The position numbers and the translations under genes were made by a program. The notes beneath the pieces are model-generated. The model was not told the DNA's origin, ran no database searches, and saw only the letters and a list, made by a program, of their open reading frames with translations. DNA of 56,548 nt from Sulfoacidibacillus thermotolerans (GTDB taxonomy: Bacteria > Bacillota > Bacilli > Alicyclobacillales > SLC66). The stretch covers positions 1-56,548 of the forward strand of contig NZ_MPDK01000018.1 of NCBI RefSeq assembly GCF_003144315.1. Direction: 5' to 3'. Shown piece after piece: positions 2,735 to 15,668 of the stretch (position 1 is the stretch's first letter; each line of letters opens with the position of its first letter).

Positions 2735-4438
2735 TCAAGTTGCATCTTTCCAAATGACTACCCCATGTGGCAAGAGGTCGTTGGCTTTAACGCATCCTTT
2801 AGGATAAGCAAGAAGGATTTGTGCCCCATGCGGCAGTGCTTGTCTCCGCTCTGTAAAGTTAAACTTCACATAAACCGAAGAAAGACCGTCTTTTGAAATC
2901 CGCTTATATTCAAACTGTCCTCTTTTATCTTCTGAAAAGATCATCCTTGTGCCTTGGAGCGCAGTTTCCGAATGACGCAAATACGCAAGCCTCTTCACAA
3001 GTAATTTTAATTCGCGCTTTTGCAAATGATCTTCCCAAACCATCCCACCTCGACATTCTGGATCTCCCGCCCCTTCCATTCCCACTTCATCTCCATAATA
3101 AATCATTGGGATACCCGGAAAACTGAACTGAAAAATGAGCACACGCGCGATTACATCGATATTTCCCTTTGCTAAAGTTAAAATACGTTCTGTATCATGA
3201 CTCCCCATAAGGTTAAACATACTGCGAATCGCCGGCTCAGGATATTTATGCAACAACCGAATCATCTCACGAATAAATGTGCGGGCATTATCTTGATGAG
3301 TCACAAAAAACCGAACGACTTTTTCCCGAAAGATGTAATTCATCACTCCATCGAATTGATCTCCGCGTAGCCAAGGTAAACTATCGTGCCAAACTTCCCC
3401 GATAATAAGCGCATCCGATTTTATCGATTTTACAGTATGACGGAACTTGCGCCAAAAGACATGATCGATTTCATTTGCAACATCAAGACGCCAGCCATCT
3501 ATATCGAATTCACTAATCCAATAGCGCGCAACCGAGAGCAAATACTCTTCTACCTCAGGATTGGCTACGTGTAACTTTGGCATCGTAGCCACACCATTGG
3601 CAAACGTCTCATAATTCACTTTCTCCATATCAACTGAATCCTCATGCACAAAAAACCACGACCAAAACCTAGAAGCCAATCCCTTTTCCCGAACATCTTG
3701 AAATGCATAAAAATCGCTTCCACAATGATTAAAGACCGCATCTAATACAATGCGAATTCCTAATGCATGCGCCTTATTGACAAGACGCCTAAAATCTTCC
3801 TTTGTCCCAAATTGGGGATCAATCTCAAAATAATCAGTCGTATCGTATTTGTGATTTGAATTTGCTTTAAATATGGGTGTAAGATAAAGTAGATCGATGC
3901 CTAGATCTGATATATATTGTAATTTATCCTCAATCCCTAACAAATCACCCCCATAGACACTGTCCGATGTCGGCCTGCTTGACCAGGGTACAAAGGAATT
4001 TCTATGTGATCGCATCCCTCCCTTTGCAAAACGGTCTGGAAATATTTCATAAGCTACTGATTGATCTACCCACTTAGGAATTCCAAAAATATCCCTTGTA
4101 CACAAATAGGGAATTTGAAAAACCCCTGCCTCCTTCAATTCATCACTAACCGCTGATTCTCCATACCACATAACGACATCTTTCAGTCGAATTTGAAAAG
4201 TATATTTTAACCGTCGCTTTTCACAAATGACCTCTGTAAGATAATAATCCCATTGACCATCTGATCCATCAAACTCCATATCAACCTGATGGTTCAGATC
4301 TTGTTCATAACGATCTCCGTATCGCACAGCAACACTCTTCGCCTTACCAGGGGCGACACAGAGAATGATGCGCACCTTCGTTTCCGTTAGTGCATAAGCA
4401 TACGGCTCATAAGGAACATGGTAGATCCACGACTTCAA
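2735..4438 (-). CDS. GH13 cyclomaltodextrinase / neopullulanase-type amylase
   Basis: Intracellular alpha-amylase-family enzyme that hydrolyses cyclodextrins, pullulan or short maltodextrins. About 567 residues. The N-terminal 110 residues look like the CBM34-type domain of cyclomaltodextrinases and neopullulanases. The four GH13 regions are all present: DAVFNHCG (I), GWRLDVANE with nucleophile Asp near 319 (II), IIGEVW with acid/base Glu near 348 (III) and NLMGSHDT with the third Asp near 415 (IV). No signal peptide, so it acts on imported sugar. Start: the TTG at 4438 has GGGAG seven bases upstream. The in-frame GTG at 4447 overlaps that ribosome site and is less likely. Lies between the LacI regulator and the GH31 gene in one leftward operon. 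Confidence 0.9.
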   Translation of the reverse strand: MKSWIYHVPYEPYAYALTETKVRIILCVAPGKAKSVAVRYGDRYEQDLNHQVDMEFDGSDGQWDYYLTEVICEKRRLKYTFQIRLKDVVMWYGESAVSDELKEAGVFQIPYLCTRDIFGIPKWVDQSVAYEIFPDRFAKGGMRSHRNSFVPWSSRPTSDSVYGGDLLGIEDKLQYISDLGIDLLYLTPIFKANSNHKYDTTDYFEIDPQFGTKEDFRRLVNKAHALGIRIVLDAVFNHCGSDFYAFQDVREKGLASRFWSWFFVHEDSVDMEKVNYETFANGVATMPKLHVANPEVEEYLLSVARYWISEFDIDGWRLDVANEIDHVFWRKFRHTVKSIKSDALIIGEVWHDSLPWLRGDQFDGVMNYIFREKVVRFFVTHQDNARTFIREMIRLLHKYPEPAIRSMFNLMGSHDTERILTLAKGNIDVIARVLIFQFSFPGIPMIYYGDEVGMEGAGDPECRGGMVWEDHLQKRELKLLVKRLAYLRHSETALQGTRMIFSEDKRGQFEYKRISKDGLSSVYVKFNFTERRQALPHGAQILLAYPKGCVKANDLLPHGVVIWKDAT

Positions 4439-6451: not shown

Positions 6452-7416
6452 TCAACCTCCTTAAAAGCACCTGTATAACGCATGTTTAGCCAACTGATCA
6501 CTCCGACAATGACAAACAAGATGATCGATATTGCCGATGCAAGATCATACCGATTAAAATCAAGCGTCATTTTATATGCCGCTGAAGCTAATATATCGGT
6601 CTGCCCTACAAATGGATTATCAGAACGTGCTGGTCCACCCCCTGTAAGCAGATAAACTCCGCCAAAATTATTAAAATTAAAGGCAAATGACGGAATGACA
6701 AGAGGCAAAGTAATTGACCAAATTTCCCGAATCGTAATCCATCTGAATTTTTGCCACCAATTCGCCCCATCGATTGCCGCCGCTTCATAGATCTCACTTG
6801 GGATCGCTTGCAATGCACCCAAGCAAACTGTCATCATATAAGGAAAACCCGCCCAGACATTCACCATAATCACTGAAAAGCGCGCCCAAAACGGACTCGA
6901 TTGCCAGGGAATTTTGGGAATCCCTACTGTGTGTAAAAGCGCATTAATCTGTCCATAGGAATCATTCAACAGCCCTTGCCACACCAACATGGTGATCATC
7001 CCAGGAACCGCCCAAGGAATAATTAGAATTGTACGATAAATAATACCCTCACGTAAATGCGGATTATTTAAAAGCACCGCAAGAAAGAGTCCAATGAAAT
7101 ACGCAAATCCTGTCGTTAAAAGTGCATAGACCAACGTCCAGACAAATGTCGGGATAAATACCGCAGACAAAGGATTATTGGGATTCAATAGAGATATAAA
7201 ATTTTTCAACCCAACAAAATGATAATTCAAAAAATGCATCTGATTATAATCTGTAAATGCAATAAAAATCGTATAGAGAATAGGTGCTATTCCCAGCACA
7301 GCAATGGTAATTAAAGCTGGGCTCATATAGAGATAGGCAATCTTCTGCGTCTTTGAGCCTTTCTTTACGGATTTATTATTCGCTATCCGATTGAGATTTG
7401 CCATATTCGCACTCAT
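6448..7416 (-). CDS. malF: Maltodextrin ABC transporter permease MalF
   Basis: Second permease of the CUT1 sugar importer, about 322 residues from the ATG at 7416, which has GGGGG eight bases upstream. Reading further upstream adds residues that do not look like this family. It has six predicted spans and the EAA loop EIYEAAAIDGANWWQKF. The first span follows a basic N-terminus (KKGSKTQK). Overlaps malG by four bases and starts 71 bases after malE. It lacks the long extra N-terminal region of enterobacterial MalF, as is usual in Firmicutes. Confidence 0.92.
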   Translation of the reverse strand: MSANMANLNRIANNKSVKKGSKTQKIAYLYMSPALITIAVLGIAPILYTIFIAFTDYNQMHFLNYHFVGLKNFISLLNPNNPLSAVFIPTFVWTLVYALLTTGFAYFIGLFLAVLLNNPHLREGIIYRTILIIPWAVPGMITMLVWQGLLNDSYGQINALLHTVGIPKIPWQSSPFWARFSVIMVNVWAGFPYMMTVCLGALQAIPSEIYEAAAIDGANWWQKFRWITIREIWSITLPLVIPSFAFNFNNFGGVYLLTGGGPARSDNPFVGQTDILASAAYKMTLDFNRYDLASAISIILFVIVGVISWLNMRYTGAFKEVE

Positions 7417-7487
7417 TGCATTCACCCCCATTGATAGAACGGGGAATTTGCATGAATACCACCTGCAAACCCCCCTATGCATTTTCC

Positions 7488-8744
7488 TTAACCAGCAATC
7501 AGAATTCCCTTTTTTATATTCGCAACAAAATCTTGCGCACCTTGTTCCGGAGAAACCTTTCCGTCAATAATATTTGACAGAACACTCATCGCCGTCCAAA
7601 CAGCCTGCATCTGTGGAATATTTGGCATTGGGACAGCATTTTTCACTTGATCCGCAAAAGCCTTAAAATAAGGGTTATCTTGTACCGCAGCAGACTGCTG
7701 CACACTCGTCAACGCGGGGATCTGTTGTGCATTTTGGAAATACATCTGCTGTGCATTTGCGTTTGTAATTGCTTTTACCAAGCTCCAATCAGCTGATTGT
7801 GTATGGCTACTCGCCGACACGAAAGTTGTAATAACACCCAAAAACGGCGTCGCAGGGTGACCGTTAGGGAGTGTCGGCCAAGGGGCAATGCCATACTTCA
7901 CACCCGATTGATTCATGTTAGGAATTTCCCAAGGACCACTAATAAACATGCCAATGCTCTTATTCTGAAATTTCGTTTGTGCAATATTTCCGTTTTCACT
8001 TGGGGTCATCCAATGGTATTTATGATCCATGTCATACATCAATGTATACGCCTGAACAGCTCCCGCATTGGCTAGACCTATATCATTTGGATCTAGCGTT
8101 CCGTTGTTATCTTTAAATACATACCCACCCATTCCACCTACTAGAGCAAAATTAAAATACAAGTTATGTTGAGCATATCCGAACCCGTATTTATTTGCAT
8201 CATTTTCAAATTGACTCCAAGTAGTAGGTGCCACAGGAATCTCATCTTTATTATAGAAAAGCGCCGTGGTTTGAACGGATACCGGAACCGAATACTCCAC
8301 CCCATTAATCGTAACTGCATCAATCACTGAATTTGCATAGTCACTGTTGTTCAAAAACCCATTAGGAACTTTAGAAAGGAGTCCTTCTTGAGCGAATGCT
8401 CCATTGTTATCATGCGGCATCCCAAAGACGATATCAGGTCCCTTACCTGTACGAGCTGCGGTTGCGTAGAACTGAAAGCCATTCGCATTATGACTTTGAT
8501 CCACAACCTTTACTGTATCTCCATGTTTTTTCGCCCAAGCATCAGCAATTTTCTCCATGTCTTGTAATTGCGGTCCTGTCGCCCACGACCACACGGTAAT
8601 GGTTTGCCCGCTTGGAATCCCCGGCGACGCCGGGTTCGGCGCACTCGAAGCACTATTGGTAGCCGCCCCACAGCCAGACAATAGCCCGCTTATCATCGTT
8701 AAAGCGGTTACATTATAAGCGACAATCTTCAATTTCTTATTCAT
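7488..8744 (-). CDS. malE: Maltodextrin-binding lipoprotein MalE
   Basis: Extracellular substrate-binding lipoprotein of the maltodextrin importer (family 1 solute-binding protein), 418 residues. The N-terminus is a lipoprotein signal peptide ending in the lipobox LLSGC near residue 25, so it is anchored in the membrane after lipidation. Motifs such as GKGPDIVFGMPHD and MFISGPWEIPNM are typical of maltose-binding proteins. ATG at 8744 is preceded by GGGGGAGAAG. First gene of the operon, which its promoter and LacI-type operator directly precede. It would capture dextrins released by the glucoamylase encoded at 52648-55557. Confidence 0.93.
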   Translation of the reverse strand: MNKKLKIVAYNVTALTMISGLLSGCGAATNSASSAPNPASPGIPSGQTITVWSWATGPQLQDMEKIADAWAKKHGDTVKVVDQSHNANGFQFYATAARTGKGPDIVFGMPHDNNGAFAQEGLLSKVPNGFLNNSDYANSVIDAVTINGVEYSVPVSVQTTALFYNKDEIPVAPTTWSQFENDANKYGFGYAQHNLYFNFALVGGMGGYVFKDNNGTLDPNDIGLANAGAVQAYTLMYDMDHKYHWMTPSENGNIAQTKFQNKSIGMFISGPWEIPNMNQSGVKYGIAPWPTLPNGHPATPFLGVITTFVSASSHTQSADWSLVKAITNANAQQMYFQNAQQIPALTSVQQSAAVQDNPYFKAFADQVKNAVPMPNIPQMQAVWTAMSVLSNIIDGKVSPEQGAQDFVANIKKGILIAG

Positions 8745-13199: not shown

Positions 13200-14024
13200 C
13201 TAGAGAATACGAAGCATGGATAATGGCTCGCTCCAGTAATATCCTTGGCTTAGGCGAATACCAAAAGAAATTAATTGATCAACATCCGCCCGCTCCTCTA
13301 CCCCTTCAGCAATAATTCGATCGTGAAACGGAACCTGTTGCAATAACGCATGTAGTTGGTCTTGTTGTTTAGCCGATCTCGAAATCCCTTGAATGAGAGA
13401 TCGGTCAATCTTTATATACTCTGGTTCAAGAATGCTCAATTTCCTTAAAAAATCGGCATCGCAACCCTCATAGCGAATATCATCCAACGCAAACCGTATA
13501 CCAAGTGAACGGAGTTCACGAAGTGACTGCTTTAACTCAAGCGGGTGATATGGAACATATTCGATCAGCTCAATGACAATCCATGCGGGATCAAAAAGTT
13601 CCTTACGAAGAGATCGTTCTAAGGATTTGACAAACGTTAAATCCAATAAACTCGTTGGCATCACATTTAAAAATAACTGCTTACTTGTAAGTACATCGCA
13701 TTGAAATTGGCGCAAAGCAGTCTGCACCGCTAAACGATCGGCATCAATCTGCCGCTTCTGAGCCACAGAAGTCTGAAACCAAGTATCTGGCTGAAGCATT
13801 TGGCCATTCCAATGTGGACGGCTTAACGCTTCGTGTGCTTGAACTTTTTGTGCGACATGATCGACGATGGGTTGGTATACGCTATATAAAGAACTCGATT
13901 CGAGAACTTCTTGCACGTACATCGCTTCCTCTCGCGGGTAAGCATTCAGATGTATTGGATTCGCTGCGCTCTCTAAGATGGGGTCCATCGCGTGCAATGA
14001 ACGTTTAAAAACTTCTCGCTCCAT
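13200..14024 (-). CDS. EAL-domain protein, possibly inactive
   Basis: Stand-alone EAL domain (cyclic-di-GMP phosphodiesterase family), about 274 residues with no GGDEF partner or membrane span. Recognisable elements are YQPIV, the EAL triad in HEALSRP, LFLNVMP, ELIE, DDI, IKIDRSL, IIAEGVE and a C-terminal SQGYYWSEP. Loop 6, normally DDFGTGYSSL, is DDIRYEGCDAD here, so the dimerisation loop is altered and catalytic activity is doubtful. It may instead be a c-di-GMP sensor. ATG at 14024 has GGGGG five bases upstream, and an ATG ten codons earlier has none. It is transcribed away from the regulator at 14481. Confidence 0.8.
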   Translation of the reverse strand: MEREVFKRSLHAMDPILESAANPIHLNAYPREEAMYVQEVLESSSLYSVYQPIVDHVAQKVQAHEALSRPHWNGQMLQPDTWFQTSVAQKRQIDADRLAVQTALRQFQCDVLTSKQLFLNVMPTSLLDLTFVKSLERSLRKELFDPAWIVIELIEYVPYHPLELKQSLRELRSLGIRFALDDIRYEGCDADFLRKLSILEPEYIKIDRSLIQGISRSAKQQDQLHALLQQVPFHDRIIAEGVEERADVDQLISFGIRLSQGYYWSEPLSMLRIL

Positions 14025-14111
14025 CCGATCCCCCTGCTTTTCCCTCAAAGTCATTACCGCTCAACACAACCTCGACCACTTTCCACTCATGAATTACATC
14101 CTCATTCGAGA

Positions 14112-14211: not shown

Positions 14212-14367
14212 CTAAAGTACTCCTGGATCAGTAATTGCAAGTGGAGAAGATTGATAAGTGCCACTTGAGGCAGAGAATACACCCACTCCTACACCCGTAG
14301 AAGCTAACATAAGAAAAGCCGAGAGAAATATGCTACTGATCACGATCAAGATTTTCATATCTTTCAT
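14212..14367 (-). CDS. Small exported peptide, probable signalling pro-peptide
   Basis: A 51-residue gene not previously recognisable by length. It starts at the ATG at 14367 with GAGGGAG nine bases upstream and ends with TAG at 14214-14212. The N-terminus (MKDMKILIVISS) has two or three lysines and then a hydrophobic core of about 16 residues, a typical Sec signal peptide, with possible cleavage after the FSA near residue 33. The short remainder ends in SPLAITDPGVL. It is divergent from a helix-turn-helix/TPR regulator with a perfect inverted repeat between them, the layout of peptide pheromone systems of the RRNPP group (PlcR-PapR, Rgg-SHP, NprR-NprX). The active peptide would probably be a C-terminal fragment, re-imported by an oligopeptide permease. 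A 12-codon ORF from an ATG at 14371 overlaps out of frame. The function is inferred. Confidence 0.7.
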   Translation of the reverse strand: MKDMKILIVISSIFLSAFLMLASTGVGVGVFSASSGTYQSSPLAITDPGVL

Positions 14368-14397
14368 TCATAATCACTCCCTCTAGGTTATGAATAT

Positions 14398-14403
14398 AGT
14401 ATA
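14398..14403 (-). promoter_or_regulatory. -10 box of the peptide gene promoter
   Basis: TATACT on the minus strand, about 31 bases before the peptide start codon. The matching -35 position (14421-14426) falls in the inverted repeat and is not a consensus -35, as expected of a promoter that needs an activator or is repressed there. Confidence 0.5.
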
Positions 14404-14417
14404 CCTCACCGACCGCA

Positions 14418-14450
14418 TTAACATGTGTTACTGTTACTAACACATGTTAA
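14418..14450. promoter_or_regulatory. Perfect inverted repeat operator between peptide and regulator genes
   Basis: Arms TTAACATGTGTTA and TAACACATGTTAA are exact complements, separated by the seven bases CTGTTAC. The site lies midway between the divergent peptide gene and regulator gene and covers the -35 positions of both. It is the obvious binding site for a dimer of the helix-turn-helix/TPR protein. Confidence 0.75.
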
Positions 14451-14480
14451 TAGAATGATAGCCAAAGGGGCGTAGAACTC

Positions 14481-15668
14481 ATGTCGATCGGCGAACGCGT
14501 TAGAATTTTTAGAAAACAACGAGGGATGAGCCAGGCTGACCTCGCTGGCGACTGGTTCAACCGTTCTTATATCAGCCAGATCGAGTCGGGATCCACCATT
14601 CCACCTGTCGAGACTTTGCAATTACTTGCAAAAAAATTGCAAGTATCATTAGAAGACCTTCTTGATCAACCAGATGCAGTCAAATCCGAAAAAGAACCTT
14701 ATCATAAACTACAGCAGGCAAAGCGTTGTAAATCAATAAAAATTGCAATTGAAGCATGGCAAAAAGCAATCGATCATTCCTTAAGCTTAGTTGCAGTAGA
14801 TGCTGCTTTATTTATTACTCAGCATGAGGGGTACACAGAAAATGTACATATAATTTTGTTCACAACTTACAACTTATTAACGAGATCACCGATTAATGAA
14901 AATGCAGCATGGTATGAGTTTATGTTTCAATTAGGTAATTCATATTTTCACCAAAAACAGTTTAATGAGGCAAGACAGATATATGAATCTTTAATTCAGA
15001 CTAATTCTGCACTTGATATAGAACAAAGAGCAAGAATCAATCTTGCTTCTACATTTTTTCGTTTAACTTGGTATGAATTAGCTATCATGAATTACGAAAG
15101 AGCGATAGATCTAATTAAAGATGAATTAGTTAACACAGATGAAATAAAGTTAAAAATCGGCATGTGTCAACATGGACTCGGGAGTTGTCATCATTATCTA
15201 GGAAACCTTAGTTTAGCTTTTGAATATACGCAAAAAGCTCAAGAACAGTACAATAAAGTTGACCGAAATCGTTGGCATGATGCCAATCACAATTTAGGTA
15301 TTATTTTAGTTGCACAAAAGCGTTATAATTACGCGAAACAGAAACTTTTAGTAAGTCTGCAATTTTATGTTGAATCGAAATTATATGCAAAAGCCGCAAA
15401 TGTATTAGATGACCTCGTAAAAATTGCTATTCTCGAAAACAATCTTAATTTAGCTTTTGATTACAATTCACAAGGAATCTCCTATCTCGAAAAATACGAT
15501 TATGACCCAGTTTTAATGGTCCGATTGTTACTACAAAAGTGTCAGATTTTAAAATTGCAAAATAATGAGTCTTATCGCGATCTCTATACGGCGGTGAAGG
15601 CACTCGCTCGTGCAATTCAATTTGATCTAAAAGACAATGCCTTAGATACCGAACACCTGAGTGAGTAA
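14481..15668 (+). CDS. HTH-TPR peptide-responsive regulator (RRNPP-like)
   Basis: Cytoplasmic transcription regulator of 395 residues. Residues 1-63 form an XRE-type helix-turn-helix (GERVRIFRKQRGMSQADLA ... ISQIESG). The remaining 330 residues are helical with repeated TPR-like units, such as FMFQLGNSYFHQKQFNEARQ near 147 and GMCQHGLGSCHHYLGNLSLA near 227. This is the architecture of PlcR, NprR, PrgX and Rgg, which bind re-imported peptide pheromones in the TPR groove. ATG at 14481 follows AAAGGGG ten bases upstream. The gene is visibly more A/T-rich than its neighbours, a hint of transfer. Divergent from the 51-residue exported peptide across a perfect inverted repeat, so likely autoregulated. 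Targets beyond this locus are unknown. Confidence 0.82.
   Translation: MSIGERVRIFRKQRGMSQADLAGDWFNRSYISQIESGSTIPPVETLQLLAKKLQVSLEDLLDQPDAVKSEKEPYHKLQQAKRCKSIKIAIEAWQKAIDHSLSLVAVDAALFITQHEGYTENVHIILFTTYNLLTRSPINENAAWYEFMFQLGNSYFHQKQFNEARQIYESLIQTNSALDIEQRARINLASTFFRLTWYELAIMNYERAIDLIKDELVNTDEIKLKIGMCQHGLGSCHHYLGNLSLAFEYTQKAQEQYNKVDRNRWHDANHNLGIILVAQKRYNYAKQKLLVSLQFYVESKLYAKAANVLDDLVKIAILENNLNLAFDYNSQGISYLEKYDYDPVLMVRLLLQKCQILKLQNNESYRDLYTAVKALARAIQFDLKDNALDTEHLSE

Follow-up and report, generated by a model that had tools for sequence, protein, structure and literature searches.

A divergent gene pair of Sulfoacidibacillus thermotolerans, for an exported-type peptide with a PG core and an HTH-TPR regulator, as an unnamed RRNPP-like candidate in acid-loving Bacillota

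Contig NZ_MPDK01000018.1 of Sulfoacidibacillus thermotolerans (56,548 nucleotides (nt); hereafter the window) holds a small gene for an export-type peptide of 51 amino acids (aa) (14212–14367, minus strand). Divergent from it lies a gene for a 395-aa protein with a helix-turn-helix (HTH) domain and tetratricopeptide repeats (TPRs), a putative pheromone receptor (14481–15668, plus strand), and the two start codons are 113 nt apart. The original prediction, made from the sequence alone, had proposed that these genes form an unnamed quorum-sensing pair of RRNPP type, with a perfect inverted repeat between them and the mature signal near the C-terminus of the peptide. Both open reading frames (ORFs) stand as described and the pair spans 14212–15668. 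The inverted repeat, ATTAACATGTGTTA-N7-TAACACATGTTAAT, is indeed perfect, with 14-nt arms (14417–14430 and 14438–14451) that are 100% complementary around a 7-nt spacer.

The peptide gene encodes MKDMKILIVISSIFLSAFLMLASTGVGVGVFSASSGTYQSSPLAITDPGVL, which is built from a short basic N-terminus, a hydrophobic segment, a variable linker and the C-terminal sequence SPLAITDPGVL. Its export-type character was judged from hydropathy, which peaks at 2.7 over the hydrophobic segment. Orthologues occur in two congeners, where the divergent peptides end in ...SSSPLAITGPGVI (genome G002) and ...SSPLAVTDPGVI (genome G001) and the regulator orthologues have 74% and 70% identity. The peptide start, MKD[MI]K, is identical in these two congeners, and a purine-rich stretch precedes the start in each. 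Synonymous change between the peptide genes of the three congeners is high to saturated. Across the three congeneric pairs, the ratio of nonsynonymous to synonymous change (dN/dS) was 0.05–0.17, where computable, for both the signal segment and the last 11 residues; the codons of the latter (14215–14247, minus strand) make up the likely signal region. The linker is freer, with a dN/dS of 0.57, or a dN of 0.47–0.57 where dS was saturated. Since the signal segment and tail change little while the linker drifts, it is the export segment and the tail that are under selection, a pattern that would be expected of a propeptide with a C-terminal signal. A chance ORF was rejected on the basis of this purifying selection. 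The peptide has no Pfam match at E ≤ 1, PapR included. An NCBIfam scan returned matches below cut-off only, and PHROGs returned one weak match of unknown function over the signal segment (phrog_33877, E = 0.0012).

Relatives were drawn from the order of the window (59 genomes), from a named GTDB contig scan (29 loci) and from the order of Sulfobacillus harzensis (42 genomes). For the Sulfobacillus set, order membership was taken as in the genome collection searched and class membership from NCBI taxonomy, according to which Sulfobacillus belongs to Clostridia and A. mengziensis, the relative from Alicyclobacillus, to Bacilli. A fixed rule was used for scoring: a divergent ORF of 30–80 aa, starting within 250 nt, with a hydrophobic segment and a proline-glycine (PG) pair within the last 25 residues. 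This rule was satisfied beside 20 of the 29 clade regulators, at 0 of 39 loci of other HTH regulators from the same searches (the TPR content of which was not checked individually) and by 57 of 5,800 dinucleotide shuffles; because the PG motif was noticed before counting and some genomes are near copies, these figures are descriptive and do not constitute a test. The 20 are not independent, as G490 and G491 share one peptide and G061 and G062 nearly share one. Among named organisms, the PG peptide occurs in A. mengziensis, A. montanus and S. harzensis and on a plasmid of A. fastidiosus; the other hosts include metagenome-assembled genomes. Of the three outcomes that the original prediction had named as refuting it, two were looked for, a small gene not conserved beside regulator homologues and a C-terminus that varies randomly, and neither was seen; the gene was found beside 20 of 29, and the tail carries the low dN/dS given above as well as a shared core.

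That core has the consensus P-x-x-[IV]-[TP]-x-PGV, or a TDPG-x variant, near the C-terminus. PGV is invariant in 13 of 13 aligned peptides, and the proline six residues ahead of it is kept in at least 90%; the exceptions are G040, without that proline, and G008, which reads QMIGPGV. The Alicyclobacillus peptides and that of G008 carry 8–17 further residues after the core, so the core is the extreme C-terminus only in some lineages. The predicted position of the mature signal thus stands as far as a constrained tail is concerned, and the extreme C-terminus does not hold for every lineage. The more distant peptides of the Sulfobacillus order end in GITNPGVPA, SVTDPGSPS, GLTDPGAP or [GT][VT]TDPGYP...

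In a midpoint-rooted tree of 39 regulators (27 of the 29 clade members, with G490 and the broken G044 omitted, and 12 controls), the PG regulators form one group of 25 rows without controls, with support of 89/81, under the 95/80 mark of the tool, and most of the absences of a peptide are nested inside it. A profile of the 13 peptides gave 9 strong matches over the 59 genomes (E ≤ 1.1e-10), all adjoining a regulator, the next match having an E of 0.012. All nine were already in the profile and the TDPG variant was missed, so that the result tells only of a lack of further PGV-type copies away from the regulator. In S. harzensis the profile missed a second, TDPGYP-type copy, which came to light by way of its regulator, so the variant type may have orphan copies. 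Viral contigs yielded no relative (6 matches to the pattern), and phage records none at E ≤ 1e-8. Plasmids gave one record at E ≤ 1e-10, that of A. fastidiosus, in which the regulator is split. Among 398 genomes of the phylum at E ≤ 1e-35 (four candidates scored per listed genome), two were found beyond the window, G344 and G130. The G344 locus (L126, 2807–3001) has a co-directional export-type peptide right after a related HTH-TPR regulator; this peptide is rich in proline and glycine and, by translation, lacks the PG core.

The regulator matches Pfam HTH_3 (8.1e-13) as well as TPR_12, TPR_2, TPR_1 and TPR_8, all above cut-offs, and its PHROGs matches fall in the HTH region. An AlphaFold2 model built with 12 sequences (mean predicted local distance difference test score 90.6; predicted template modelling score 0.73) has five helices in the HTH domain and, after them, sixteen that form a TPR superhelix. 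The N-terminal HTH domain covers residues 1–62 (14481–14666, plus strand; HTH_3 at residues 8–60, with predicted helices), and the superhelix covers residues 66–383 (14676–15629, plus strand), as drawn from the AlphaFold2 helices and structural matches. When a profile of 12 regulators was compared with solved chains, PlcR (2qfc, 3–256, E = 8.3e-15) alone was matched over both HTH and TPRs among the best 60 of 126 matches. In structural alignment, apo NprR (5dbk) scored Z 22.7 and RapI (4i1a) Z 22.6, with NprR and Rap proteins falling within Z 20–23. Three residues mark the clade: W93 (23 of 25 clade regulators vs 0 of 14 controls), R183 (23 of 25 vs 5 of 14) and S190 (22 of 25 vs 4 of 14). These are clade-specific candidates for peptide binding. 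On alignment with consensus TPRs, R183 and S190 correspond to positions 2 and 9 of helix A of a repeat, both of which usually face the ligand.

Some copies of the regulator are damaged or irregular. At L051–L053, of Sulfobacillus type, the regulator frame has no ATG, GTG or TTG start ahead of the first HTH helix (around 2980–3045). On the A. fastidiosus plasmid (L083, 5807–8514) the clade regulator is in two parts with a transposase-like ORF between them (6621–7874). In G044 (L011/L089) it is broken by an internal stop, and an export-type peptide, ...NDVIGPGIDIVTSGGFES, lies upstream of it on the same strand.

Each arm of the inverted repeat between the window's two genes holds one TAACAnnTGTTA dyad, giving two in total. 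The arms are identical in G002, and in G001 most changes in one arm are matched by changes in the other, so that the repeat is kept. Each of the three congeneric genomes has exactly two sites with the pattern (≤3 mismatches), and a reversed-pattern control gave none in each. The first site in each is the peptide-regulator locus, and the second adjoins a protease gene with an export-type N-terminus, as judged by eye. In the window genome this is a Peptidase_A4 gene, divergent from a gene of the aminotransferase family that is followed by an amino-acid permease; in G002 it is likewise a Peptidase_A4 gene, and in G001 a gene with a pro-kumamolisin activation domain (S53 type). The repeat thus behaves as an operator, and one that marks a protease gene at a second place in the genome.

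A probable −10 element of the peptide promoter, TATACT (14398–14403, minus strand), lies 15 nt from the proximal operator arm, and the same element and spacing occur in G001 and G002. Among the 12 gene directions at the six sites of the three congeners, 5 have a −10-like hexamer at exactly this spacing: the three peptide genes share TATACT, the A4 gene of the window genome has TATGAT, and the G001 protease site has TATAAT on its far side. No good −35 element was seen by eye at the peptide promoter. An operator arm occupies the −35 position there, which suggests activation. A scan for the sigma-70 consensus found 6 sites vs 5.8 expected. In other lineages the same intergenic place is taken by other dyads, TAACATTTGTTA (three Sulfobacillus-type loci) or TCTCGCACGAGA (three Alicyclobacillus-family loci). 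In all three Alicyclobacillus-family genomes searched (≤1 mismatch), a longer form of the latter, TACTCTCGCACGAGAA, has a single copy, which lies at the locus. All three Sulfobacillus-type genomes have an exact match to TACTAACATTTGTTARTA at the locus; no second strong operator site was found in these six. Beyond the G001 protease operator (L186, 4039–4099), the TATAAT is followed by a GC-rich hairpin with no clear gene, possibly a small RNA or short transcript.

The locus thus has a conserved small gene with a conserved core, a divergent HTH-TPR regulator and a two-dyad operator that recurs at a protease gene. It is probable, in our estimation, that these parts make up a pheromone-receptor switch that is RRNPP-like and autoinducing, in which the signal is conserved and the targets can be exchanged. 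The co-conservation at 20 of 29 clade loci vs 0 of 39 controls speaks for the proposed unnamed RRNPP-like pair. The propeptide would be exported by the general secretory (Sec) pathway and trimmed outside the cell, leaving a short fragment around PLAITDPGV(L). Once density is high, this fragment would be re-imported through a permease of the oligopeptide (Opp) type and bind in the TPR groove. The peptide-bound regulator would then bind the operator and activate the divergent peptide promoter, giving positive feedback, and would further activate the protease gene as well as whatever follows the peptide gene (here the gene of an EAL protein). Elsewhere among the lineages, the switch would stand by other genes, such as those for radical-SAM or ThiF enzymes with exporters, or for a subtilase. 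The window genome has four SBP_bac_5 matches (Opp-type binding proteins).

Several results weigh against this reading. Nine of the 29 clade regulators are without a divergent PG peptide under the fixed rule: those of A. suci and a near relative (G034, G042), A. contaminans (G029), HOT.MB2.19 (G043), the broken G044, which has a co-directional PG peptide upstream, G064b, with a peptide ending in ...GITDGGPA, G064c, and finally G484 and G485a, which the tree sets among controls and whose peptides end in IP.PSPITDVYHMVL. The peptide profile likewise gave no match at E ≤ 1 in G034, G042, G029, G043 or G044. The window protein as a single query matches PlcR over the HTH only. The TPR domain of LGN scores up to Z 27.3, above NprR and Rap, and other TPR proteins score equal or higher; the regulator fold is therefore consistent with an RRNPP receptor and not diagnostic of one. 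Matches to Opp-type binding proteins occur in 11 of 14 control genomes too, and Sec-type export was judged by hydropathy only. The 15-nt spacing is absent from 7 of the 12 gene directions, including the A4 gene of G002 and the S53-type gene of G001. The operator search in Sulfobacillus-type genomes gave an extra site with 2 mismatches in G061 and one reversed-control match in G063. Finally, no EAL gene lies downstream of the G002 peptide within the 975 nt available.

A broader and more tentative proposal, which we regard as possible though doubtful, is that one peptide word (P..[IV][TP].PGV; TDPG-x) is used in two classes of acidophiles, around Alicyclobacillus and Sulfobacillus, as a portable density switch. 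In such a switch the regulator, peptide and operator position would stay constant, and the controlled gene would be swapped among a protease, an EAL protein, a ThiF or radical-SAM enzyme and an exporter. Since the core is shared, species that live side by side in acid habitats could sense each other's signal, and receptors for which no peptide gene is recognisable, such as those of A. suci and A. contaminans, could be listeners.

The sign of regulation might be the opposite of that proposed: the regulator would repress the peptide gene and its operon, and the peptide would relieve this repression as an inducer or switch the oligomeric state of the regulator, as happens with PrgX. The operator lies between divergent genes and close to the peptide −10, so binding could block either promoter. 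The lack of a good −35 by eye and the same arm-to-(−10) spacing at the unlinked protease gene suggest instead that the arm replaces the −35, in the manner of an activator, and we judge repression unlikely, at perhaps a minority chance. As it is itself a version of the pheromone switch, the likelihoods of the two overlap.

The genes that follow the peptide bear on whether it could instead be the precursor of a ribosomally synthesized and post-translationally modified peptide (RiPP) or of a bacteriocin, processed by a neighbouring enzyme under control of the HTH-TPR protein, with the PG core as the product. In the window the gene downstream on the same strand, a possible co-transcribed target, encodes an EAL-domain protein of the cyclic di-GMP phosphodiesterase family (13200–14054, minus strand; PF00563, 2.4e-36), and an EAL gene also lies downstream of the G001 peptide. 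A ThiF gene follows the peptide in G040, and ThiF with a major facilitator superfamily (MFS) gene in L054. Elsewhere it is followed on its strand by an AsnS/asparagine-synthetase-A-like protein and a methyltransferase (L052, with look-alike ORFs in L051), by a short unknown ORF, an FGE-sulfatase-domain protein and a methyltransferase (L053), by MauE and a thioredoxin-like protein, past which come transposase pieces and then an ABC exporter (G008), or by one unknown ORF and then a subtilase (A. mengziensis). In G485 and G493 a radical-SAM protein and an MFS exporter follow, and in G064b a B12-binding radical-SAM protein lies by the GITDGGPA peptide. For the radical-SAM proteins of G485 and G493 the best model is a RiPP maturase (TIGR04463), below its cut-off. 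These enzymes and the ThiF genes speak for a precursor, but the neighbours vary by lineage (EAL, subtilase, AsnS-like, ThiF, radical SAM) while the peptide core and the regulator are constant. Beside the radical-SAM genes there are other short ORFs that contain Cys, chosen by eye (L173, 4759–4860; L174, 2219–2293); these could be the precursors, and the PG peptide therefore need not be the substrate. The PG peptides of these loci contain no Cys, whereas the name of the maturase model speaks of Cys-rich targets. On these grounds the RiPP precursor was rejected as the principal explanation and is judged improbable. A similar short Cys-containing ORF occurs at the PG-less G064c locus (L170, 49–135). 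An ORF near the A. mengziensis subtilase (L082, 10964–11635) has a below-cut-off match to Bacillus_PapR (E = 0.085), probably by chance.

It is slightly less probable still that the exported peptide has some other job, as a small membrane or secreted protein or a toxin, and is merely a target gene of the regulator. Such a role would agree with the signal segment being as well conserved as the tail; against this, the linker drifts while the tail is kept, the tail core is common to two classes of Bacillota, and no partner other than the regulator was seen to be constant. Direct membership of PlcR-PapR, NprR-NprX or Rgg-SHP (short hydrophobic peptide) was rejected and is very improbable. Although the regulator profile matches PlcR over both domains and the divergent order and radical-SAM neighbours are reminiscent of Rgg-SHP, the peptide has no PapR-type or other Pfam match at E ≤ 1 and has a long hydrophobic segment, signal-type by hydropathy, that speaks against an SHP, and the loci are set apart by gene order (unlike that of PapR and NprX), peptide type and TPR type.

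The original prediction had likened the pair to all three of these systems, and parts are indeed held in common with each. PlcR-PapR of the Bacillus cereus group likewise combines an HTH and TPR receptor with a small Sec-type propeptide with a C-terminal signal, and the PlcR regulon includes secreted enzymes. The papR gene lies downstream of plcR and is co-directional with it, whereas the peptide gene here is divergent, the operator consists of TAACAnnTGTTA pairs and there is no PapR family match; the receptor has 395 residues here vs 293 in the solved PlcR chain. NprR-NprX of Bacillus also has an HTH and a long TPR receptor, apo NprR being among our structural matches. NprR controls an extracellular protease, and protease control is likewise proposed here. 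The NprX gene lies downstream of the receptor gene; the differences here are the divergent order, a protease of A4 or S53 type and a PG-type signal core. In Rgg-SHP of streptococci, the peptide and regulator genes are divergent, as they are in the window. The TPRs of Rgg are described as degenerate (PMC9765709), and SHPs as short peptides that leave the cell through PptAB (PMC9765709, PMC10075063); here the TPRs are canonical and above Pfam cut-offs, and the 51-aa propeptide has a long Sec-type signal segment by hydropathy. The radical-SAM RiPP (RaS-RiPP) loci (PMC13361665, PMC8092268) resemble those lineages in which the switch stands by radical-SAM RiPP-type genes.

The computational criteria of RRNPP_detector for RRNPP systems are a propeptide of 10–100 aa, Sec export, a receptor of 250–500 aa, TPRs and adjacent genes (PMC10075063). 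The pair agrees with four of these five features (51 aa, 395 aa, TPRs and adjacency), Sec export being judged by hydropathy only, and thus resembles the candidate pairs of that work. The same paper infers 10 gene clusters of Alicyclobacillaceae under such systems; in the text covered, neither a PG core nor an operator, a protease target or a link to Sulfobacillus is named, and individual pairs may stand in its supplementary tables. Among the literature matches listed, this was the only paper, so far as the matched text goes, to bring RRNPP together with Alicyclobacillaceae, and no title or abstract start described the PG peptide, subscription journals, preprints and supplements being outside the scope of the search. 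The pair is regarded here as an unnamed RRNPP-like member, the signal of which is unusually well conserved and the targets exchangeable. Conservation of a signal core across two classes would be unusual for RRNPP-type systems, the propeptides of which are described as too divergent to reveal ancestry (PMC9765709).

If the pheromone switch is real, it would provide a defined quorum-sensing system for acid-loving Bacillota, including uncultured lineages, with a predicted signal, operator and target gene. The A4 and S53 protease families are acid-active, and density sensing would be tied to exported proteases of these families, a public good at low pH. The switch may turn on secreted proteases and other shared products in these bacteria, and nearby cryptic peptide-product genes would be marked as inducible.

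Other HTH-TPR regulators were seen in the same searches. At L023, L024, L028 and L030 they are divergent from spoIIAA/spoIIAB-like genes, as judged by eye from translations. At L132 and L133, export-type peptides ending in IP[AT]PSPITDVYHMVL are divergent from HTH-TPR regulators outside the PG clade. In another HTH-TPR clade (L012, 2853–3014; L014, 945–1106), a co-directional export-type peptide lies downstream of the regulator and has the conserved tail ...GSLPQPISPxVKxMSGTxTL, perhaps representing a second peptide system.

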